Shown one piece after another: positions 993-32,377 of a stretch of 32,377 bases of DNA. The stretch lies in assembly GCA_944372545.1 (NCBI GenBank), contig CALVZO010000014.1:1-32377 (forward strand). The letters are read 5' to 3'. The notes beneath the pieces were generated by a model. That model did no database searches and was not told where the DNA came from. It was given only the letters and a program-made list of their open reading frames with translations. The position numbers and the translations under genes were made by a program. Each line of letters opens with the position of its first letter. Within the stretch, counting starts at the first letter, position 1. This stretch comes from an uncultured Bacilli bacterium. GTDB lineage: Bacteria; Bacillota_I; Bacilli_A; RF39; UBA660.

Positions 993-2319
993 TTACTAAT
1001 TCCTCCTTAAAGTTAAAATCCATATATAATATTGTTCCTGGGAATTTTTTATTTAATTTTATTATACAATCATTATCCTGTTGTTTTAATATGGTATTTT
1101 CTTTATTAAAACATATTTGATATAAATTATTGTCTATTTCGTTATTAAGTTTATATGAATATTTATTTTTAAATTTTATCATTGTGTTCCCAGAAATTAA
1201 TGTACAATTTGCTTTTTCTAACTCTGATTTACTGGATATTTTATCAATTTCACTATTTAATCTATATATCCCACTTCCCCTTTTATCGTAATTATCTGAA
1301 TCTTGAATTTTTGAACTTATTCCTTGTTGTATAGCAAGAAATGTATAAGCCTGATCTTCTTCATAAAAATTTGGAGTAATAAATAAACGTTGCTTTTTTA
1401 TTATTTCTTTACTTGCTTCCATAATTTTTTGCTGTTTTTTTGTTAACAATTCACTTTCATTATCCATAAATTCTCTCAAATTATCAGAAATTATAGTTCC
1501 ATAATTCATTATTGCTAATCTAATACTACTTTTATTATATTCGTCTTTTGGAATAACGTTTCCAACAATGTACCAATTTTTATTATTTGAGTGTTCACGA
1601 ACATTATCTACAATTTCAGAAATTATTCTACCCATAGGGGCAATATAGTCATCTTTGTTTTTAAAATTTGTAAAAATCATCTCAACAATTTCGGTAGTTA
1701 TTATATCATCATTATCTATGTTATTTTTATTAAAATCTACGAACCTAACATCTTGCTCTTTTCTTAATTTTTCTCTTATTTCACTTGCTGGTCTTTTAGC
1801 ACTATGCCATCCTCTCTCATTTATAAAACTAGTAGTAATTATATTTTTGTAGGCAATAGAATTTATATTTTCTGGAAATGAAACCTTAAATTCTACTTTA
1901 TGATTTTTCAAAACATATTTTAAACTTGTCATTACTGAATCTAAGATGCATGATGCATCTAAATCATATGTTTTTGTTTTTTTAAAATTCAAATGGATTA
2001 ATTTTACAGAAGAATATATTTTATTGTTAGCTAACGATGCAACATGTGAAATAAAATTCATACTATCAATATAATTGTCTTTTAATGAAAATAATGTTGG
2101 ACAAACTATTTCATACTCTTTATTATAATAGCGATCTAACTTCAATTGTTTATAGTTTATCAAAAAATTATAATTTTTCAAATATTGTTTTTCCACATTA
2201 TCAATTTTATTATTATTTTTACCTTTTTTTATTCTATTATTTCTTCTAATTCTTTTTAATTGTTTTCTCACATTTTGTCTATCGTGTATATCTCTTAACT
2301 TCCAAAATTTTTTTTGCAA
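985..2319 (-). CDS. GHKL (HATPase_c)-type ATP-binding protein paired with a STAS-like protein
   Basis: About 444 residues. The first 40 residues are strongly basic (QLKRIRRNNRIKKGK), suggesting nucleic-acid or membrane-surface contact. The C-terminal half carries GHKL features: an N-box-like IISEIVDNVREHS near residues 232-244 with the E..xN pair, an AIMNYGTII segment where a G1 box would lie, and a glycine loop RGSGIYRL near 347-354. There is no phospho-acceptor histidine domain in front, so it is not a standard sensor kinase. Start: the frame opens at a TTG (2337), but the TTG at 2319 has a good GGTGGTGAT ribosome site and is preferred. First gene of a coupled three-gene operon; its 3' end overlaps the STAS-like gene. 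Precise function unknown; a defence or stress-signalling role is inference. Confidence 0.65.
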   Translation of the reverse strand: MQKKFWKLRDIHDRQNVRKQLKRIRRNNRIKKGKNNNKIDNVEKQYLKNYNFLINYKQLKLDRYYNKEYEIVCPTLFSLKDNYIDSMNFISHVASLANNKIYSSVKLIHLNFKKTKTYDLDASCILDSVMTSLKYVLKNHKVEFKVSFPENINSIAYKNIITTSFINERGWHSAKRPASEIREKLRKEQDVRFVDFNKNNIDNDDIITTEIVEMIFTNFKNKDDYIAPMGRIISEIVDNVREHSNNKNWYIVGNVIPKDEYNKSSIRLAIMNYGTIISDNLREFMDNESELLTKKQQKIMEASKEIIKKQRLFITPNFYEEDQAYTFLAIQQGISSKIQDSDNYDKRGSGIYRLNSEIDKISSKSELEKANCTLISGNTMIKFKNKYSYKLNNEIDNNLYQICFNKENTILKQQDNDCIIKLNKKFPGTILYMDFNFKEELVNE

Positions 2320-2372
2320 AATATCACCACCAAACAATCAAAAATAGAATATCAAATAGATAATTTTAATAT

Positions 2373-2378
2373 ATTATA
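2373..2378 (-). promoter_or_regulatory. Candidate -10 box for the ATPase/STAS-like operon
   Basis: TATAAT on the minus strand about 55 bases upstream of the preferred start. No convincing -35 is visible in the A-rich stretch in front. The surrounding 2338-2533 gap otherwise holds only AT-rich DNA with no supported gene. Confidence 0.3.
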
Positions 2379-2533
2379 TCATATTTTTTTGTTTTTAAAT
2401 AAAAGAAAATGATTAAATTTCAAAGATTTAACCATTTAAATTTATATATATATCAAACACTTATATTTATACTCTACATCATATTTTTTAGCATAAATAC
2501 TGCTTATTCCCCTAGTAAATTTATAGGTATCAT

Positions 2534-2920
2534 TCATAAGACAGAAAGTTGTATTGGTGTTACACTTATACCTTGACCAAAAGCAGTTGTTGCAAGTTCA
2601 ACTGGACCCATATTGGAATTTTTAAAAAGAATACCATTACCTTCCCCATTTAAATCAATACCAGTCTTTTCGCCAAACCCAAAATCTCTTATATAACCCA
2701 TTAATTTTTCTACTCCTAGTTTATTTCCTAATGATACAAACCCGGGATTACAAGAGTTCTCAACAACTTCTAAATATGTCTGTACTCCATGACCTCCGTG
2801 TTTCCAACAATGTAAGGTAGAACCATCAACATTAATTGAGCCTGTATCAGCATAGGTATCTTTAAATAAATCAATTGTTTTTTCTTCAATACTACTAGCA
2901 AGAGTAATAATTTTGAAAGT
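2534..2920 (-). pseudogene. 3' fragment of a SpoVD-like penicillin-binding protein (class B transpeptidase)
   Basis: This is the continuation of the broken gene at 21142-22011. Right after the element junction it reads TFKIITLASSIEEK, then the transpeptidase SxN motif as SCNPGF, then GFGEKTGIDLNGEG and FGQGISVTPIQL, all classic SpoVD/PBP2 sequence. The frame stops (LSVL, TGA) soon after VTPIQL, so the KTG motif and the last part of the transpeptidase domain are absent; no KTG-like remnant was found in the next 150 bases in any minus-strand frame I read. The fragment is thus cut on both sides: by the serine-recombinase element and by an older 3' loss. An apparent TTG start at 2929 lies in element DNA and has no visible ribosome site. 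Confidence 0.85.
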
Positions 2921-2945
2921 AACCACCAATGGCGAGTACTAAAAA
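2900..2945. other. Left attachment site (hybrid att) of the integrated element
   Basis: Host PBP sequence (up to 2920, plus strand ...TTTTGAAAGT) meets element sequence (AACCACCAATGGCGAG...). The dinucleotide GT at 2919-2920 (AC in the gene's direction) is the only base pair step shared with the right junction in register, as expected for the crossover dinucleotide of a large serine recombinase. The element arm contains CCACCAATGGCGAG, an imperfect copy of a motif in the right arm. Confidence 0.75.
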
Positions 2946-2950
2946 AGAGC

Positions 2951-2985
2951 AAAAAAATAAGGTAGGAATTGTTAGTTCCTACCTT
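2951..2985 (-). terminator. Strong terminator at the end of the recombinase gene
   Basis: On the minus strand a perfect 10-bp stem AAGGTAGGAA/TTCCTACCTT (2976-2985 with 2959-2968) with a 7-base loop is followed by a T-rich tract (2958-2951). It overlaps the recombinase stop codon and lies between the gene and the att site, which would stop element transcripts from running into the host gene fragment. Confidence 0.8.
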
Positions 2986-4717
2986 AATCATTAATCTTAT
3001 TTAAATAAACATTATAAGTAAAAGTATTCCTTTTAAAATCTGCTCTTCCTAAATCTAATGTATCACATGTAGAATTATATATTGATAAATTCTCATTAAT
3101 GCTTCCTATATGTTTAGATCCTTTAGTTGTAACTTTAGGTTTCTTAATTAGATTTAAGAATATATCTAACTTAATATTATTTCTATCATTATCTATTTTA
3201 GAAACAATTATTTCATCAACAAAAGTTTCTACAAATGACTGAATATTGGTTTTAAAATCTAATTGCTTTTTAATAGCAGACTCTACATTTTTTAAATTAG
3301 AAGTACTAATAGACATTAAATCCTTTTCTTTTTCTAATGTAGTTATTTTATTTTTTAGATTTGCTATTTCTTCGTTATATTCATCATTTCGTTCTTGAAA
3401 CTCTAAATTACTAATATTACCACTAATATTTAATTCTAGTATTTTATCTTTTTTTCTTTTTATTTCATCTATTTTATTATTTACTTTTTTGATTTCATTT
3501 TGATATGTATTAGAAAGTTTTAAATTAGAATAATAAGACATCATCTCATTTACAATAGAATCTTTATTTTCAAATATTTTATTCATAATATCACTAAATA
3601 TATTATCTAAATCTATTTCTGCTATTATTGGACTTTCACATGCTTCTAATCTATATCTCATATAATAACCACATGACCATCTAGGTTTTTTACTTCTGCG
3701 ACTACCAGTTGATCTTTGAAAATTAAAATTGTGTTCGCTACAAAACATTTTACCACTATAAGCATATTTTCTTTCAGTTCTTCTATTTGATAATTCCTTA
3801 TTTTTCACAACATTACTCCTTGATTCTAATATCTCATTAGCACGATTCCATAATTCTTCACTAACTATTGCCGGGATGTTTTCATCCCTATAAATAATTC
3901 TTTCTTCTTTAGGTATATAAACTCTTTTTTTAGTTCTATAATCTATAATTTCAGTTGTATGCCCACAATAGAAACCTTTATATTTAGGATTTTCAATAAT
4001 TCTTTTTAATGTATCTTTATCATATATTTTGCCTTTAGAATTATTTATTCCTTGCTTATGCAATTCCATAGCAAGTTTATAAAAACCATAATTGCCAGTT
4101 GCATATAATTCAAATATTTTTCTAACAACTTGTGCTTCTGATTCAACTATTACTAATTTAGCATTTCCTTTTCTATAACCAGTAATACTATTAGATCCTA
4201 AAACTCTTCCTTTTTTAATTGCTTCTCCATGTCCCCATTTAACACGAGCAGAAAGTCTTTTAACTTCTTCTTGTGCGACACTTCCCATCATATTTAATAT
4301 AAATTCAGAGTTAGGATCATAAGTATTAATTCCATTTGACTGAAAATAAACTCCCACATCATTTGCCATTAATTCTTGAGTGTACTTAATACTATCAGAC
4401 AAATTTCTTGAAAACCTTGATACTTCTTTTGTTACTATTAAATCAAAGTAACCACTTTTAGCATCTTCTATCATTCTCAAAAAATGTTTTCTTTTTTTTA
4501 CTGAACTACCACTTATACCTTCATCAATATAACCATCGACATAGATCCAGTTAGGATTAGAAGTAATAAATTCTTTAAAGTAAGATATTTGATTTTCTAA
4601 TGAATTTAATTGTTCGTCGCTTTCAGTAGAAACACGAGCATAAAAAGTAACTCTTAAAGGTAATGTTGTTATATTTTTGCCTTGCAATATTGCTTCTCTT
4701 ACTTTATAAAATCTCAT
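2984..4717 (-). CDS. Large serine recombinase (site-specific integrase)
   Basis: 577 residues, usual length for the family. Resolvase-type catalytic domain about residues 21-165: YARVSTESDEQ with the nucleophilic Ser30, DEGISGSS, VSRFSRN. A 'recombinase' DNA-binding domain follows (about 185-300, including a KRIIENPKYKG segment). A zinc-ribbon-like part has Cys at MFCSEH, WSCGYY and LEACES, and a long coiled coil at about 395-455 (KIDEIKRKKDKILEL onward) is typical of LSR directionality control. The ATG at 4717 has an AGGAGG site that overlaps the stop of the upstream small ORF. It catalyses attP x attB integration through a 2-bp staggered cut; the GT/AC dinucleotide at the junctions fits. 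Host gene insertion shows it has acted here. Confidence 0.95.
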   Translation of the reverse strand: MRFYKVREAILQGKNITTLPLRVTFYARVSTESDEQLNSLENQISYFKEFITSNPNWIYVDGYIDEGISGSSVKKRKHFLRMIEDAKSGYFDLIVTKEVSRFSRNLSDSIKYTQELMANDVGVYFQSNGINTYDPNSEFILNMMGSVAQEEVKRLSARVKWGHGEAIKKGRVLGSNSITGYRKGNAKLVIVESEAQVVRKIFELYATGNYGFYKLAMELHKQGINNSKGKIYDKDTLKRIIENPKYKGFYCGHTTEIIDYRTKKRVYIPKEERIIYRDENIPAIVSEELWNRANEILESRSNVVKNKELSNRRTERKYAYSGKMFCSEHNFNFQRSTGSRRSKKPRWSCGYYMRYRLEACESPIIAEIDLDNIFSDIMNKIFENKDSIVNEMMSYYSNLKLSNTYQNEIKKVNNKIDEIKRKKDKILELNISGNISNLEFQERNDEYNEEIANLKNKITTLEKEKDLMSISTSNLKNVESAIKKQLDFKTNIQSFVETFVDEIIVSKIDNDRNNIKLDIFLNLIKKPKVTTKGSKHIGSINENLSIYNSTCDTLDLGRADFKRNTFTYNVYLNKIND

Positions 4718-4730
4718 ACATTTTTACCTC

Positions 4731-4892
4731 CTAACTTTGACTTTTTAATTGATTTATCTTTTCATATATTATTTTGCATACTTCATGATATTGTGTTTCA
4801 CTAATAACACCATCTTCAAGCAGTTGATTATTTATTATTAATTGGACTTCTAAAATTGAAATTCTAGGAATATTAACTTGGTATTCTACCAT
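4731..4892 (-). CDS. 53-residue protein immediately upstream of the recombinase
   Basis: Starts MVEYQVNIPRISILEVQL and continues with NNQLLEDGVISETQYHEV, a helix-turn-helix-like pair of short helices resembling SHOCT-type short motifs. Its ATGGTAG start overlaps the stop of the preceding 44-codon ORF, and its own stop (TAG) forms part of the recombinase ribosome site (TAGGAGG). Such tight coupling argues that it is real and co-produced with the recombinase. A role as recombination directionality factor or regulator is plausible but unproven. Confidence 0.6.
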   Translation of the reverse strand: MVEYQVNIPRISILEVQLIINNQLLEDGVISETQYHEVCKIIYEKINQLKSQS

Positions 4893-5020
4893 TGAAAAAT
4901 CCCTTTATTTGCTTGATAAAATAGTGTTTTTTTAATTTTGGTTGATTGCATGTTAGCATCATTTTTTGATAAATGCAAATCATCTTCATTGTTTTTTGAA
5001 AACTTTTTAAATTTATTCAA
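4886..5020 (-). CDS. 44-residue basic protein at the head of the recombinase operon
   Basis: TTG start at 5020 preceded by a GGAGGTG ribosome site with about 7 bases spacing. The product begins MNKFKKFSKNNEDD and is lysine- and asparagine-rich. Its TGG-TAG end overlaps the ATG of the next ORF (ATGGTAG), giving a coupled chain of 44-aa ORF, 53-aa ORF and recombinase. No family recognised. The precise architecture and ribosome site support it, though TTG starts and short length keep confidence moderate. Confidence 0.45.
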   Translation of the reverse strand: MNKFKKFSKNNEDDLHLSKNDANMQSTKIKKTLFYQANKGIFQW

Positions 5021-5082
5021 AAAAACACCTCCACAATAGAAGTGTATGAATAATATAATTGAAAAGAACTAGCACTAAAAAT

Positions 5083-5436
5083 TTAGACATTATTTTTAGT
5101 TTCCTTTTCTAAAGATAAATCTTCTTCTAAAGGATGTTTTAAATGTATTTCAATAATAGTTTTTGTATCATCTCCATTATCTATATTTAAATGATATACA
5201 TCATTATTAATTTTTCCTTTAATATATGACTTTTCTTTGGGAGTAAGTTTTTCTTTTATTTCAAAACTAGCAAAAGTTCTGTTATTATTTTCTTTATATT
5301 CAAAAATATTAATTTTTTCTTTTAATATATCTTGAACTAAATTTACAATATTTTCTAATTTTTTAATTTCAACTAATTTAAATTTTTCATACGAAGAAAG
5401 ATCTTCTCTTTGCAAAATTGCTAGAAAAAAACACAT
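5083..5436 (-). CDS. Hypothetical protein (about 117 residues)
   Basis: No family recognised. The middle is helical and charged (KLENIVNLVQDILKEKINIFEY) and the C-terminal part reads like alternating strands (KTIIEIHLKHPLEEDL). No clear ribosome site precedes the ATG at 5436; a TTG at the LQREDL position would be an alternative start. A TTGTCA-like -35 and TAAAAT-like -10 lie about 60-80 bases upstream on the minus strand, so it may be transcribed on its own towards the recombinase operon. Confidence 0.5.
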   Translation of the reverse strand: MCFFLAILQREDLSSYEKFKLVEIKKLENIVNLVQDILKEKINIFEYKENNNRTFASFEIKEKLTPKEKSYIKGKINNDVYHLNIDNGDDTKTIIEIHLKHPLEEDLSLEKETKNNV

Positions 5437-5553
5437 AATTTAAATTTTCATGCGTTTATCCTGAATCTTTTTTTGATAATTATTTCATTTTACTATATTT
5501 TAACACTTGACAAATATAAATCAATGATATTTTGAGCATAATTTAAGCATATT

Positions 5554-5910
5554 TTAGTTGAAACTCAATAATTGCTCTTTTCCATTCAATAATATAGTAG
5601 TTAAATCATTATAATCTAAATATTTTAATGAATTATCATATTCTGTTTTTGCATCTTCAAAAGTATTAAATTTTTGATTTAATAGTCCATTAACAATATT
5701 GTCAATTCCATCGTCCACAAATATATCAACAATGTATTCATTATCTAATTCAAACATTATGACACCTTTAGTAACATTGTTTGAAATATATCTTTCATCT
5801 TTAAATATAAATTTTGTTTTAGTATTGTTAAATAACTTTGGATATTTAGATTTCTTTTGATTTAAAACATCTAATACTTCATAAAATATTTTAATTTCAT
5901 TATCATTCAT
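5554..5910 (-). CDS. Hypothetical acidic protein (118 residues), last gene of cargo operon B
   Basis: ATG at 5910 with an AAGGGGG ribosome site. Acidic, no membrane segment; contains FELDNEYIVDIFVDDGIDNIVN-type strand and turn sequence (about residues 53-72) and a helical C-terminus. Not recognised as any known family. It lies 22 bases after the Nudix gene and shares its direction, so it is probably co-transcribed with the cargo genes. Confidence 0.6.
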   Translation of the reverse strand: MNDNEIKIFYEVLDVLNQKKSKYPKLFNNTKTKFIFKDERYISNNVTKGVIMFELDNEYIVDIFVDDGIDNIVNGLLNQKFNTFEDAKTEYDNSLKYLDYNDLTTILLNGKEQLLSFN

Positions 5911-5932
5911 AAATTTTCCCCCTTAATAGAAT

Positions 5933-6328
5933 TTATATATTTGATAATTTATCTTTTATAAATTCATCTAGATAATCAGAATCTTTTGTAACCCATTTAT
6001 AATCACAATGTTCATTACTTAAATTAATATTTATTTTAGATCTATCAACATTAATAATAAAATCAATTTCTAAATCATGTACTAATTCGTTATTTTTTTC
6101 TTTTACTTCATCGTAGTAGTGAGTAATAATTGGATCAAAGTCATCTGTAAAACCAATTTCTTCTTTTAATTCTCTTTTTAATCCATCTTTTAAAGATTCT
6201 CCATCTTCTAAATGACCTCCGGGAAATTCCCAAGCACCCGGATATAGTTCATCATTTTCATTTCTTTTTACTGCAAGAAATAAATCATTGTCTTTTAATA
6301 TTCCAGTTAACACAATCCTTGTTTTCAT
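5933..6328 (-). CDS. Nudix hydrolase (MutT-like)
   Basis: 131 residues. The Nudix box is complete at about residues 37-59: GGHLEDGES, then the REL.EEIGF ending, matching Gx5Ex7REUxEExGU. An EFPGG lead-in follows LYPGAW, as in MutT/CTP pyrophosphohydrolase-like members. The family cleaves nucleoside diphosphates linked to another group, commonly (d)NTPs to NMP plus pyrophosphate with Mg2+. ATG has AAAGGTGATT as ribosome site. It sits directly downstream of a pyrophosphatase-like gene, so pyrophosphate made by the Nudix reaction could be removed by the neighbour (inference). Substrate cannot be read from the sequence. Confidence 0.9.
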   Translation of the reverse strand: MKTRIVLTGILKDNDLFLAVKRNENDELYPGAWEFPGGHLEDGESLKDGLKRELKEEIGFTDDFDPIITHYYDEVKEKNNELVHDLEIDFIINVDRSKININLSNEHCDYKWVTKDSDYLDEFIKDKLSNI

Positions 6329-6341
6329 AAATTAATCACCT

Positions 6342-6689
6342 TTATCTTATTATTATTGATTCGAAAAATCTTTCTTGAAATTCTGTCATCGCTCGAATTG
6401 CATCATCAGAATAATCCACACCTTTAGGTGCTACTACTAATTTGTCATCATCATCATCATTTGTTCTATGTATAATTGCGACAACATGTCCCTCGAATTC
6501 TTCAACTGGTTCATAAACACCAACAATATAGGCATCTAATTCTTCACCATCCCCACTAATAGTATTAGGTATATATCCATAATTCAACATATACATAAAT
6601 CCATGCTTAGGGTGATTTGTTCCAAGTTGTCTGTCAGTTTTTACAACTACATCCTTTTTTAAATAATCTTTTGCATTGGTCTTTTCCAT
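6342..6689 (-). CDS. Short family I inorganic pyrophosphatase-like protein
   Basis: 115 residues, shorter than the about 170-180 of normal family I enzymes, lacking most of the C-terminal part. Core motifs remain: NYGYIPNT, GDGEELDAY (Asp-x-Glu...Asp in place of the usual DxDPxD) and DDDDDKLVVAP, the metal-binding loop with Lys. The family hydrolyses pyrophosphate to phosphate. GGAGG ribosome site. Between the Nudix gene (13 bases) and an unknown gene. It may act on pyrophosphate or on a special phosphoanhydride made in this pathway; the D-to-E change and short length leave the exact substrate open. Confidence 0.75.
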   Translation of the reverse strand: MEKTNAKDYLKKDVVVKTDRQLGTNHPKHGFMYMLNYGYIPNTISGDGEELDAYIVGVYEPVEEFEGHVVAIIHRTNDDDDDKLVVAPKGVDYSDDAIRAMTEFQERFFESIIIR

Positions 6690-6705
6690 CTTTTGCCTCC
6701 AAATT

Positions 6706-7410
6706 TTAACTATCTTTATGTTTAGTTAATCTTTTTTGTTTTGATTCTTCATTAATAATTGTTAAAGAACCTAAATTTTTAAAATTTTTATATGATGCCA
6801 TACTGATTGTTTCATATTGAATATTATTTGTTGATAATACATTGTCAAATACTTCTATATATTCTTTAAGAGTAGGCATATTTTCTAATTTATTAAGTTG
6901 ACTTAATAGAACTTTTATATCTATAGGTGTTTCATTACCATTTAATTGCAATTGATGGCATATATTATCGCTTAAAAACAAATTATAAAAAGTAGTTGTA
7001 TCTGTAATTAATCTTCCAAATTTGAAATTGAAAGCCGATTCTGTTCGCATTAATTCAACATTAGAATTTGTTATATCAAACTTTTTAAATAAAGTTACAT
7101 CGTATTTTTTTTCACTATCATTACTTATTTTTTGAACAATATTTAGATCTTGTTTAATATTTGATTTTGGACAGAAGATATATATATTACCATCTATATC
7201 TTCACACCATAATTTTATATAACCCTGTTCTTCATCTTTGTTTATTTCATAAAAATTACAATTTATTGATTTATCAAATATTCCTAAACTTAATAATGTA
7301 TTAATGATTTTTTTGTATAAAGATTGATTTGCCTTTAAATTTTCAATCAAACTTATAACATTTGAATCATTAGAAACTAATTCAAATTGTTTTTTCTTTA
7401 TTTTACTCAT
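6706..7410 (-). CDS. Unknown 234-residue protein of cargo operon B
   Basis: No recognised domain. N-terminal half has strands such as GYIKLWCEDIDGNIYIFCP (about 75-93); the rest is mixed alpha/beta with a basic tail (KQKRLTKHKD). No membrane segments or signal peptide. ATG at 7410 has a very strong AGGGGGG ribosome site. It lies between the decarboxylase (22 bases) and the pyrophosphatase-like gene (16 bases), so is probably part of the same pathway, perhaps the gene most specific to it. A structure prediction would be more informative than sequence comparison. Confidence 0.65.
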   Translation of the reverse strand: MSKIKKKQFELVSNDSNVISLIENLKANQSLYKKIINTLLSLGIFDKSINCNFYEINKDEEQGYIKLWCEDIDGNIYIFCPKSNIKQDLNIVQKISNDSEKKYDVTLFKKFDITNSNVELMRTESAFNFKFGRLITDTTTFYNLFLSDNICHQLQLNGNETPIDIKVLLSQLNKLENMPTLKEYIEVFDNVLSTNNIQYETISMASYKNFKNLGSLTIINEESKQKRLTKHKDS

Positions 7411-21104: not shown

Positions 21105-21160
21105 ATTAGGACTAGCCATTGGCTAGTACAATATTAAATGTTGAACCAGGCTCAAACGTT
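21105..21160. other. Right attachment site (hybrid att) of the integrated element
   Basis: Element DNA ending ...ATATTAAATGT (to 21141) meets host PBP DNA TGAACCAGGCTC. GT at 21140-21141 is the shared crossover dinucleotide. The element arm holds a perfect 8-bp palindrome with one central base, ACTAGCCATTGGCTAGT (21111-21127), related to the left-arm CGCCATTGGTG, likely a recombinase-binding symmetry. Confidence 0.72.
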
Positions 21161-22011
21161 TTCCAAATAGGCAAGTTTCTATTAATAACTTCTTCACTAT
21201 AATCTTGGTAATTTTCAGGATCAAAACTAGGTTTACTCCCCATTGCTAATACTTCACCAGTTTTTGGATTCATAATAATTGCTAAAGCCTCATCACTATC
21301 ATATTTAGACATTGCATTATTAAGTTCATTATCTAATGCCATAATAAGTTCAATATCTAAAGTAAGTTCTAAAGTCATACCTTTAGTGGGGGCTACATAA
21401 CTATCAGGAATTTCTAATTTATTTCCTTTTCCATCACTATAATACTTTAATTCCCCATTTGTACCCGTTAAATATTTATCATAAGTAAGTTCTAATCCCG
21501 ATAATCCTTGATTATCTCTTCCAACAAATCCAATAATATGTGATAGTGCATCTTTATACGGGTAATATCTTTTAGTATCTACTACTAAGTATACGCCATC
21601 ATACCCTAAGGCATCTATTTTATCGGCAACCGTGCTATCTAAATCCATACCTTTTCTAATTATTTCCATACTACTATTTTTAGATACATATTTATATACA
21701 TCTTCATAATCACAGTTTAATATAGAAGCAATATCCCTAGATACTTTTTCTTTGTCTTCTATCTGATTAGGAACTACATAAATAGTTGTAGTAACTACAC
21801 TTGTTGCAAGCACTACACCATTTCGATCAACTATATCTCCTCTTGGAGCATTAATAGTCATTTTCCTACTCCATAAATCTTCCGTTAGTTTTGATAGTTT
21901 ATTATAAGATATAACCTCGATATAAAATACTTTACCAATTATTAATAAAAAACAAATAACCACTACCAATATAGCAAATCTAATTCGAATATGAATATCA
22001 TTAAAAAACAT
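21112..22011 (-). pseudogene. 5' fragment of a SpoVD-like penicillin-binding protein
   Basis: Intact up to the element: cytoplasmic start MFFNDIHIRIRF, membrane anchor about 9-30, PBP dimerisation part (APRGDIVDRNGVVLA), then the first part of the transpeptidase domain up to KTFEPGST. Host sequence ends at 21142; the last codons (FNIVLANG, stop at 21112) come from the element. ATG at 22011 is preferred over GTG at 22023 because GGTG lies at the right distance. The serine of STFK is retained here while its lysine is now 18 kb away at about 2914, so no active enzyme can be made. SpoVD/PBP2 transpeptidases cross-link peptidoglycan in division or spore cortex. Confidence 0.9.
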
Positions 22012-22321
22012 ATTATTCACCACTAAATAATATGTTTATATATTTATTTTAATTAATTCTAATACTTTTAATTATTTTTCATTAATAATATTAATAGGTT
22101 TAGTTTTAGAAATTTTTAAAATAGGAATAATTGAACTTACTATTAATAACTAAAGTAATTATTACAAACATACTTATTATACAATTTAAATTAAATATAA
22201 TTATTTTTGCATAAAAGAATAATACTTTGGCTATATAATTATTGACAATATTTATTGCTAATAAAGTACTTATACTTGATGACATTAAAGTAAAAATATC
22301 TATTATTCCACTTTCTAACAT

Positions 22322-30183: not shown

Positions 30184-31110
30184 TCATAACCTTTCTATAA
30201 TTCGTAATTTTGCACTATGACTACGACTATTTTCTTTTAATTCTTTTTCACTTGCCACTATTGGCTTCTTATTTATTATCTTAATTAAGGGCTTATATTC
30301 TTCCGGAATATTAGGGATTCCCTTAACTAATTCATTAACTTCACTATATTTTTTAAATGTCTTCTTTACTATTCTATCTTCTAATGAGTGAAATGTAATA
30401 ACTACCGCTCTTCTTCCCTTATTAAGTAAATCAATAGCATCAGGCAATACTTTTTTTAATACTTCTAATTCATTATTTACTTCAATTCGAATAGCCTGAA
30501 ATATTTTTCTCTCGGGGTGATTTTTATAAAAATATTTTGCCCCAACAGCCTTTTTTATAATATCTACTAATTCTAATGTTCTCTTAATTTCTTTTTCTTT
30601 TCTTCTCTTTACAATTGCTTTAGCAATTGCCTTTGAATTCTTTTCTTCCCCATATTCATAAAAACATTTTACTAAATCACTTTCACTATATTTGTTTACG
30701 ACATCGTACGCACTAAAAGTGCTATCTAAATTCATACGCATATCTAAGGGTGCATCTTTCATAAAGGAAAAACCTCTTTTTTCATCATCTATTTGGGGAG
30801 ATGAATTTCCTAAATCAAATATTATGCCATCAATTTTATTGATACCTAATTTATTTAAAGCATTTTTTAACTCACTAAAATTAATACCTAATATTTTATA
30901 ATTTTTCCCTACTTGACTTAATAAGTTATCTGAATATATTCTTGCTTCCTCATCTTGGTCTATTCCAATAAGTAAGCCTTTATCATTTAACCTCTCAAGT
31001 ACTAGTTTACTCATTCCGGCATACCCAAGTGTTGCATCAACATAGATACCATCTGGCTTTATATTTAAAGCCTCAATAACTTCACAAGCCATCACACTAT
31101 AATGCTTCAT
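30184..31110 (-). CDS. rsmH: 16S rRNA (cytosine1402-N4)-methyltransferase RsmH
   Basis: 308 residues. The ATG at 31110 (MKHYSVMACEVIEAL) is chosen because RsmH proteins normally start with this His-containing strand; an open extension to 31164 is read-through of mraZ. Motifs: GIYVDATLGYAGMSK (SAM motif I region), LIGIDQDEEA, IDGIIFDLGNSSPQID, FHSLEDRIVK and SRSHSAKLRI near the C-terminus. Start overlaps the mraZ end by 14 bases, so the two are coupled. Also named mraW. Confidence 0.96.
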   Translation of the reverse strand: MKHYSVMACEVIEALNIKPDGIYVDATLGYAGMSKLVLERLNDKGLLIGIDQDEEARIYSDNLLSQVGKNYKILGINFSELKNALNKLGINKIDGIIFDLGNSSPQIDDEKRGFSFMKDAPLDMRMNLDSTFSAYDVVNKYSESDLVKCFYEYGEEKNSKAIAKAIVKRRKEKEIKRTLELVDIIKKAVGAKYFYKNHPERKIFQAIRIEVNNELEVLKKVLPDAIDLLNKGRRAVVITFHSLEDRIVKKTFKKYSEVNELVKGIPNIPEEYKPLIKIINKKPIVASEKELKENSRSHSAKLRIIERL

Positions 31111-31534
31111 CAGATACTCCAAATAAGTTTTCGGCGATGCTCTCCATCTTCGATGCATTTTCATTCATGAATTTATTAAATAAAACTTCGTCCCATATTT
31201 CAATACGGTCATTTACGCCGATTATAACACACTCTTTTGTTAAACCGGCGTAGCCAACCAATGGGGAGGTAATATTGATTCGACCATTTTTGTCGAATTC
31301 ACATACAGTGGCTCCAGCAAAGAAGGAACGCATAAATGTACGGGCATCTTTTTTAGTAAATGGTAGTTTATTTAATTTGGAAACAACTTTTTCCCACTCT
31401 TCCATGGTATATAAGTATAAACATTGTTCTAAACCTCTCGTTACAACGATTTTTTCATCAGTCTTCCGAAAGTCTCTAGGTAAAACAATTCTTCCCTTAT
31501 CATCAATATTATGATGATATTCGCCCATGAACAT
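31097..31534 (-). CDS. mraZ: Transcriptional regulator MraZ
   Basis: 145 residues from the ATG at 31534 (MFMGEYHHNIDDKGRIVLP), 7 bases after a GGGGG site; an ATG-like extension to 31558 runs back through the operator repeats. Two SpoVT/AbrB-like halves: DDKGRIVLPRDFRK and FDKNGRINITSPLVGYAG, ending DRIEIWDEVLF. MraZ binds direct repeats upstream of its own operon and represses or activates dcw genes. First gene of the cluster. Confidence 0.96.
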   Translation of the reverse strand: MFMGEYHHNIDDKGRIVLPRDFRKTDEKIVVTRGLEQCLYLYTMEEWEKVVSKLNKLPFTKKDARTFMRSFFAGATVCEFDKNGRINITSPLVGYAGLTKECVIIGVNDRIEIWDEVLFNKFMNENASKMESIAENLFGVSDEAL

Positions 31535-31544
31535 TATGTATCCC

Positions 31545-31578
31545 CCACTTTCTTCCACAGTCTTCCACTGTCTACCAC
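31545..31578 (-). promoter_or_regulatory. MraZ operator: four GTGG repeats at 10-bp spacing
   Basis: Minus strand: GTGGTAGACA, GTGGAAGACT, GTGGAAGAAA, GTGGGGG. GTGG begins at 31578, 31568, 31558 and 31548, one helical turn apart. Placed between the -10 and the mraZ start, as for MraZ boxes in other bacteria. The last copy also provides the ribosome site. Confidence 0.8.
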
Positions 31579-31579
31579 C

Positions 31580-31608
31580 ATTTTACTATAAACCCCATTA
31601 AAAGTAAA
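31580..31608 (-). promoter_or_regulatory. Promoter of the mraZ operon
   Basis: Minus strand: TTTACT (31608-31603), 17-base spacer, TAAAAT (31585-31580). The start of transcription would fall in the first MraZ box. Confidence 0.55.
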
Positions 31609-31661
31609 TAACTATTCCCAAATTGTTAAGACACATCTTCTAATTGACGTTTTTTTGACAC

Positions 31662-31695
31662 AAAAAAACTCCATCTCTATTTAAGAAATGAAGTT
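31662..31695 (-). terminator. Terminator after the DUF4143 remnant
   Basis: Minus strand: 12-bp stem AACTTCATTTCT/AGAGATGGAGTT (31684-31695 with 31667-31678, two G-U), 5-base loop, seven T. It isolates the mraZ promoter from upstream transcription. Confidence 0.75.
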
Positions 31696-31707: not shown

Positions 31708-32250
31708 TTAATCTTTTAAAGTTCCAATTGAAACAACATATACGCCATCATCACGTTTATAAGAATAATTTGCACCGGTTAAAACCATCAAAAATGAAGG
31801 CTCTCCACTTTTTTTAATGTCTACCCGTTCTTTAAATTTTAATAAATTATTAGCGGCTTCATCTACATAACCTGCTCCAAGTTTTATTTCGACTGCTCCC
31901 CATTTTCCACTACTAGTCCGAACGATAGCATCAACTTCAAAATCTTTTTCATCTCGGTAGAAAGTTACATTTCCGCCATTATTTTCTGCATATATTTTTA
32001 AATCTCGCATGCAAAGAGACTCAAAGAAAAATCCAAAAGTATTTAAGTCATTAATTAAATCGCTTGGACTTATTTCCAGTGTTGCTACCGCAATAGAAGG
32101 GTCAACAAAATACTTTTTTGGTTTGGTACGAATAGCATATTTACTTCTTAAATTCAAATTGGTAGCATTAACATTTTCAATTACAAAAAGTTTTTCTAAT
32201 GTATCTAAATAATCTTTTATTGTTGGCCTAGAGATATCATCATCAAAATT
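31708..32250 (-). pseudogene. C-terminal half of an AAA ATPase/DUF4143 protein
   Basis: Reading from about 32246 the frame gives DDDISRPTIKDYLDTLEKLF, then KKYFVDPSIAVATL, FFFESLCMRDLKIYAEN, DFEVDAIVRT and WGAVEIKLG. These are the linker helix-turn-helix and the DUF4143 nuclease-like domain (VDAIV...EIKLG resembles a PD-(D/E)xK core) of the widespread AAA+DUF4143 family. The N-terminal P-loop ATPase half is missing; upstream DNA is reverse-transcriptase sequence in another frame. No good start: TTG at 32157 lacks a ribosome site. Normal members are about 400 residues; this keeps about 180. Confidence 0.75.
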
Positions 32251-32377
32251 ATTTCTTCTTTTATTTTTTTTAATAATATTTCATGATTTATACTATAAAA
32301 ATATTTACTAATATCTATTTTTAAACAATATATTTCTTTATCTTTACCCTTTAATCTAATTTCATTTATATAATCAA
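32245..32377 (-). pseudogene. Reverse transcriptase fragment (window edge)
   Basis: Minus strand, frame from 32376: DYINEIRLKGKDKEIYCLKI continuing as DISKYFYSINHEILLKKIKEE. The LKIDISKYFYSI segment is RT motif A with its catalytic Asp, as in retron, DGR, Abi-type and group II intron-like RTs. Homology fades after KKIKEEI; the frame runs to a TAA at 32217-32219, and DUF4143 sequence takes over in another frame. The YxDD motif and all later RT parts are therefore missing. The 5' part lies outside the window, so the RT class cannot be decided. Confidence 0.65.

Follow-up and report, generated by a model that had tools for sequence, protein, structure and literature searches.

Two kinds of described gene stand closest to the sequence at the right-hand end of the DNA that is considered here. 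One is the reverse transcriptase (RT) of diversity-generating retroelements (DGRs), among the accessory proteins of which Avd, HRDC and MSL (MutS-like, PF01624) are named in one account of these elements (PMC10053308). The other is the gene for ATP-binding proteins that combine an AAA_14 with a DUF4143 domain (PF13173 and PF13635). We have compared both with contig C14 of a draft genome of 0.91 Mb in 41 contigs. This contig, in its full length of 32,377 nucleotides, constitutes the window of the present analysis, and the right-hand end of the window is the end of the contig.

The contig closes on a piece of each system. The RT piece resembles the DGR enzymes that are accompanied by Avd and MSL in its motif A region, which matches residues 127-167 of the 491-residue RT of locus L240 at 71% over 41 amino acids; a TR/VR pair is present at this locus, together with an Avd-like gene and a MutS_I domain. 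It differs from such enzymes in retaining only about 42 of approximately 490 residues, in lacking the catalytic YMDD and in being joined to another gene. That gene resembles the AAA_14-DUF4143 proteins from the DUF4143 domain to the natural stop codon, with 74-82% amino acid identity to the close homologues of the genus, but the AAA_14 half with its nucleotide-binding motif is absent.

Structure of the Join

All the features concerned lie on the reverse strand. The RT piece occupies positions 32251-32377, which are the last 127 bases of the contig, and is an internal piece of a probable DGR-type RT, as judged from RVT_1, the PHROG RT family phrog_1423 and the alignment with the L240 enzyme. 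It contains motif A (YCLKIDISKYFYSINHEIL), and the frame at 32250-32375 reads DYINEIRLKGKDKEIYCLKIDISKYFYSINHEILLKKIKEEI. The RVT_1 match covers profile positions 63-94 with an E value of 5.2e-4, which is under Pfam's cut-off, the frame comprising only 52 amino acids, and the match to phrog_1423 has an E value of 1.5e-8. The piece stops before motif 4 and YxDD, and its G+C content is only 13%. Next to it (31708-32253) an AAA_14-DUF4143 ATPase gene is represented by its 3' half, which comprises the DUF4143 domain, recognised by PF13635 (E 5.7e-28, 98 bits against a cut-off of 28.1), and the gene's own stop codon; the piece matches residues 236-418 of a whole homologue at 81%. Then come a stretch directly upstream of mraZ (31559-31668), which nucleotide matches show to be partly conserved among relatives, and the gene that we take to be mraZ (31097-31558), the first of a conserved operon, called as an open reading frame and present in 20 relatives that were themselves picked by their match to the mraZ region. 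The relatives' matches that start at query position 1 mostly stop at query positions 491-575, corresponding to positions 31587-31671 of the window.

The preliminary description of this DNA had reported an RT motif A joined to DUF4143 sequence in another frame, with two unrelated genes brought together and the DUF4143 protein decapitated. This holds, and the observation is correct to within some bases: the two pieces lie in different frames, the profile matches given above identify each of them, and the homology of the second stops at 32253-32254. Six DUF4143 relatives share 79-85% of the nucleotides with the window over the 150 bases on the downstream side of 32253 and 30-38% over the 120 bases on the upstream side, and it follows from this sharp drop that the DUF4143 homology ends abruptly. 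The comparison covered six of the seven close homologues of the genus. Six of the seven are whole genes of 422-430 codons (stop to stop); the remaining one, L040 (the same place as L012), was among those compared and is truncated by the end of its contig, further upstream. The boundary can be placed to within some bases: homology to DUF4143 sets in at 32253-32254, and alignments of the RT relatives extend to 32249 (several of them) or to about 32236 (others), the latter alignments probably reflecting chance in A/T-rich sequence; some RT relatives align 2-15 bases beyond the terminal 127-mer. When the start of the DUF4143 homology is set against that of the terminal 127-mer, a micro-homology of 3-4 nt (AAAT/AAT) would lie at the join (32251-32254). 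Two points of the earlier account have to be amended. The run of eight A once thought to be the junction site is found at 32264-32271, inside the RT side and 10-20 nt off the junction. Moreover, the RT is seen to be cut on its 3' side, but its 5' side is merely outside the contig, since the window ends where the contig ends.

The Contig End

When both ends of all 41 contigs are considered, the 82 ends include nine overlap pairs and three same-end pairs of exactly 127 bases, while two further pairs share 126 bases and one shares 54. At 24 of the 82 ends the last 127 bases recur among the examined stretches and the last 128 do not, and because of this exact sharing the assembler is recognised as one of de Bruijn type with k = 127. 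According to one description (PMC10914622), assemblers of this kind break contigs where there are multiple paths, and the end sequences that remain have the length maxK. The extent of the RT piece agrees to about 3 bases with that of the contig's terminal 127-mer, which starts at 32251, and the match between join-to-end distance and k-mer length is thus good to a few bases rather than proven exact. On the DUF4143 side of the join the path runs through without an assembly break.

Probably the contig stopped at an RT word that is shared with another, unbinned context. On the simplest reading the sample contains this word with two different sequences to its left, DUF4143 in the present contig and another one elsewhere, which is probably the remainder of the RT. 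The terminal 127-mer had no partner among the 82 contig ends, and a degenerate pattern of nine residues, used to look for the second RT context, gave 0 matches in the GTDB r220 contigs and 0 in IMG/VR. A homology break at about k bases from a contig end suggests a branch in the assembly graph; it warns against calling the piece a relic and points to a second copy of the sequence in the sample.

Origin of the Join

Our preferred reading, to which we would give a probability of about 0.6, is that a DGR-type RT gene and an AAA_14-DUF4143 gene were cut and joined by deletion and that the contig stopped at a branch determined by k = 127. Both genes would have been cargo upstream of mraZ before they were cut and fused, the RT losing all that follows its motif A region and the ATPase its first 235 codons or so, probably in one deletion through the micro-homology of 3-4 nt, and neither product would be expected to function as RT or ATPase. 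The assembler would have met RT sequence also present elsewhere, so ending the contig about 127 bases past the join. We infer both the deletion and the second RT context; the latter would have remained unbinned and might be an undeleted allele, another copy, or the DGR of another organism.

A chimera produced in the library or the assembly, by which a short shared A/T-rich word linked an intact DUF4143 gene with a DGR RT, likewise intact, from elsewhere, is rather unlikely but deserves serious weight. It would suit the position of the join, about one k-mer length from the contig end, as well as the 13% G+C of the piece and the presence of this DUF4143 gene upstream of mraZ in none of the 20 relatives. 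Yet an intact continuation of the DUF4143 gene at good coverage would presumably have led the assembler to break on that side too, where no break is seen, and the missing N-terminal half of the gene was not found elsewhere in the bin, which is 90% complete; the sole other long match of this genome to a whole DUF4143 homologue is a 42% paralogue on contig C29. Because the path on the DUF4143 side is unbroken and the lost half was not found elsewhere in the bin, we favour a real deletion allele over a chimera by about two to one. It is improbable that a retroelement inserted into the DUF4143 gene and split it, with the other half now past the contig end. An RT beside a split gene does give an insertion-like picture, but the boundary falls within the reading frame of the RT, immediately past motif A, and consequently no intact element ends at the junction; DGRs, moreover, are not known to spread by inserting their RT gene, which counts against the same idea.

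The join is, then, probably a deletion seen through an assembly branch, and the locus looks like ordinary gene turnover seen where the assembler stopped, not like a new system. Taken alone, the gene fragment is of little significance; it is the contig end that is instructive.

An AAA_14-DUF4143 ATPase gene, perhaps of the same subfamily, is also found in L240, just downstream of the DGR RT and on the same strand (5709-6902). An ancestral RT-ATPase pair, which this arrangement might recall, was considered and rejected, since the RT piece has no match in the genus's own DUF4143 loci (L038-L044, of which six contain the whole gene and one a cut gene); no RT was recognised in the lists of open reading frames of these loci.

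Class of the RT Piece

The RT is most probably of the DGR kind rather than a defence RT. This class, assigned from 42 residues, can be held with good, if not complete, confidence, because the best relatives carry the DGR motif and the inspected ones have TR/VR pairs. The motif in question is motif 4 in the form ..[IL]GxxxSQ, which we take to be a mark of DGRs. The ten best of 101 ranked RT loci are all 'LSIGA(M/V)(T/S)SQ' RTs with frames of 427-514 codons, and ..SQ is present in all 93 ranked loci with a readable motif 4; the ranking is made without the window's own rows, contigs C18 and C6 and rows below 28 bits, counts some contigs twice, and includes L252 and L237, which are equal in score and length and may be one record. 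A TR/VR pair is present in four of these ten relatives (L240, L248, L237 and L239), the other six being short loci without a pair. In L240, L237 and L239 the pairs show 14, 10 and 13 mismatches, respectively, of which 93, 100 and 100% are on template A, and the RT bears a C-terminal MutS_I domain; Avd-like genes occur in L240 and L239, the two of these loci scanned for them (bAvd, below Pfam's cut-off). When the scan is extended over L189-L260, pairs appear in 28 of 72 RT loci (some of them duplicates or short) and in 0 of 34 control stretches, without any C or G mismatch bias; the count for T (30 of 72) is the A signal from the opposite strand and no separate result. No TR/VR pair was found in the five pieces of the window that were scanned, and the element would lie past the contig end.

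Across the family, 17 of 145 genomes (the present one included) match the piece at E ≤ 1e-7. The search returned 18 other matches, the best being a 427-residue RT of genome G180 (54.5 bits), and all 14 that were fetched carry the DGR-type ..SQ. Within the genus, 20 of 38 genomes (again including the present one) match the 42-residue piece at E ≤ 0.01, and the best other place reaches 33.6 bits. The genus-typical DGR RT of about 375 residues, considered as the source of the piece, is accordingly second best, with 33.6 bits at most versus the 54.5 bits of the longer RT found elsewhere in the family. At the DNA level five genomes of other genera match the piece with 84-86% identity over 94-106 bases (109-115 bits), whereas the best-scoring match in its own genus, among the matches listed, has 83% over 77 bases (81.5 bits), shorter ones reaching higher identity. 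Since the closer DNA matches lie in other genera than its own, this distribution fits a horizontally shared DGR. A phage origin was also considered and set aside: a protein search of 50,697 phage records yielded no match, and a pattern search of IMG/VR yielded 0 matches, a weak test because the pattern demands an identical nine-residue peptide.

That a defence-type RT (UG/DRT, AbiA) was once present here, as had been suggested at first, is very improbable: PADLOC models do match the 52-residue frame (UG26 first with 28.6 bits, then UG38 with 26.0, UG17 with 25.8 and the generic RT with 23.5), but the same and related models also match the RTs of about 375 residues in the genus, some of which have TR/VR pairs, and are thus unspecific, while the ..SQ of all 14 fetched family relatives and the TR/VR pairs of the closest named ones speak against it. 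The NCBIfam scores of the frame are 19.5 of 250 bits for AbiA and 18.9 of 200 bits for Drt3a, 52 residues being too short for such cut-offs.

DGR Cassettes of Related Genomes

In the genus, 26 loci were fetched for the places outside the present genome that match the piece; in 17 of them the RT forms one cassette with a MutS_I-like and an Avd-like gene, accompanied in 15 of the 17 by a small fourth gene. In L037, which has a TR/VR pair, the MutS_I-like gene scores above and the Avd-like gene below Pfam's cut-off. MutS domain I, which serves mismatch recognition, is thus encoded by a separate gene in the cassette of the genus (L037, 2764-3150), and it is fused to the RT in another DGR group (L237, 1865-3349; L239, 1341-2819; L240, 3926-5401). 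The MutS domain I of DGRs might protect targets that have just been mutated against mismatch repair. In one report mutS was deleted to help preserve DGR substitutions (PMC12875486). A limited literature search found nothing on DGRs in Mollicutes or in rabbit metagenomes. In locus L036 (genome G016), three open reading frames (1228-1932, 1978-5186 and 5291-5785), integrase-like by eye, split a DGR RT at its LPIG-NMTSQ motif.

DGR Remnants in This Genome

At E ≤ 0.001 the bin yielded no RVT_1 match. Contig C11 carries the first 62 residues of an RT of the type of about 375 residues, together with an Avd gene of which the C-terminal part is left (L072, 15109-15433). On one side this remnant adjoins a gene that in L037 and L035 comes after the intact cassette; on its other side lies a regulator gene, which precedes the cassette in L037 (the L035 stretch ends before reaching there). 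From this gene order we regard the remnant as a deleted, dead DGR in a shared place. Contig C18 begins in another RT piece, an 82-codon frame running off the contig. Nine matches at eight places (C2, C3, C16, C19, C20, C28, C29 and C41; L102-L110) resemble a DGR-target surface protein. The frames contain three stops in C41 and one in C19 and are split in two in C2, while the places in C16, C20, C28 and C29 are at contig ends; six of the eight have the ending VRPVFYL, preceded by very different sequences. An unbinned DGR in this genome is possible, the bin being 90% complete.

The Region Upstream of mraZ

The gene turnover that the preliminary description had proposed upstream of mraZ finds support in the relatives. 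Among the 20 of 37 that have enough sequence, nine different clusters (blastp E 1e-8) are represented by the first gene of at least 80 codons that lies upstream of mraZ, some of these perhaps being diverged or chance open reading frames. The gene that we presume to be yceD is reached in 10 of the 20 stretches, directly in 5. A match to the present DUF4143 protein occurs upstream of mraZ in 0 of the 20, so the ancestral arrangement is unseen. Two relatives, L058 and L060, have at the mraZ site a surface protein with the VRPVFYL ending of DGR targets; in the one compared, L058, no match was seen between the surface-protein genes and the genome's own TR.

In the genome under study yceD is located at C11:805-1278, near what by eye is the start of a gene of the surface family, cut by the contig end. 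Because yceD and this gene start sit at the left end of C11, that contig is likely to be the right-hand neighbour of C14, a neighbourhood deduced from the relatives L060 and L066; C11 also carries a gene taken for rpmF. No overlap was found between the ends of C11 and C14. We may speculate, quite tentatively, that between mraZ and yceD the genus has a docking site for DGR-diversified surface proteins and at times for the DGR machinery, and that the population is caught here with both an allele that retains a whole DGR and another in which the DGR has just been deleted into the neighbouring ATPase gene, the older DGR of C11 being already dead. If this were true, the loss of DGRs and the decay of their surface-protein targets could be traced within one genus of small-genome gut bacteria.

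Elsewhere in the window, a stretch that carries a large serine recombinase with Resolvase and Recombinase domains interrupts the gene for a penicillin-binding protein (2534-2929, 2984-4717 and 21112-22023). A piece of 202 bp of the interrupted gene (window 2548-2749) recurs with one mismatch near the right end of C18 (L027, 6954-7155), which would suit a duplication on the flank of a second insertion or of a rearrangement.
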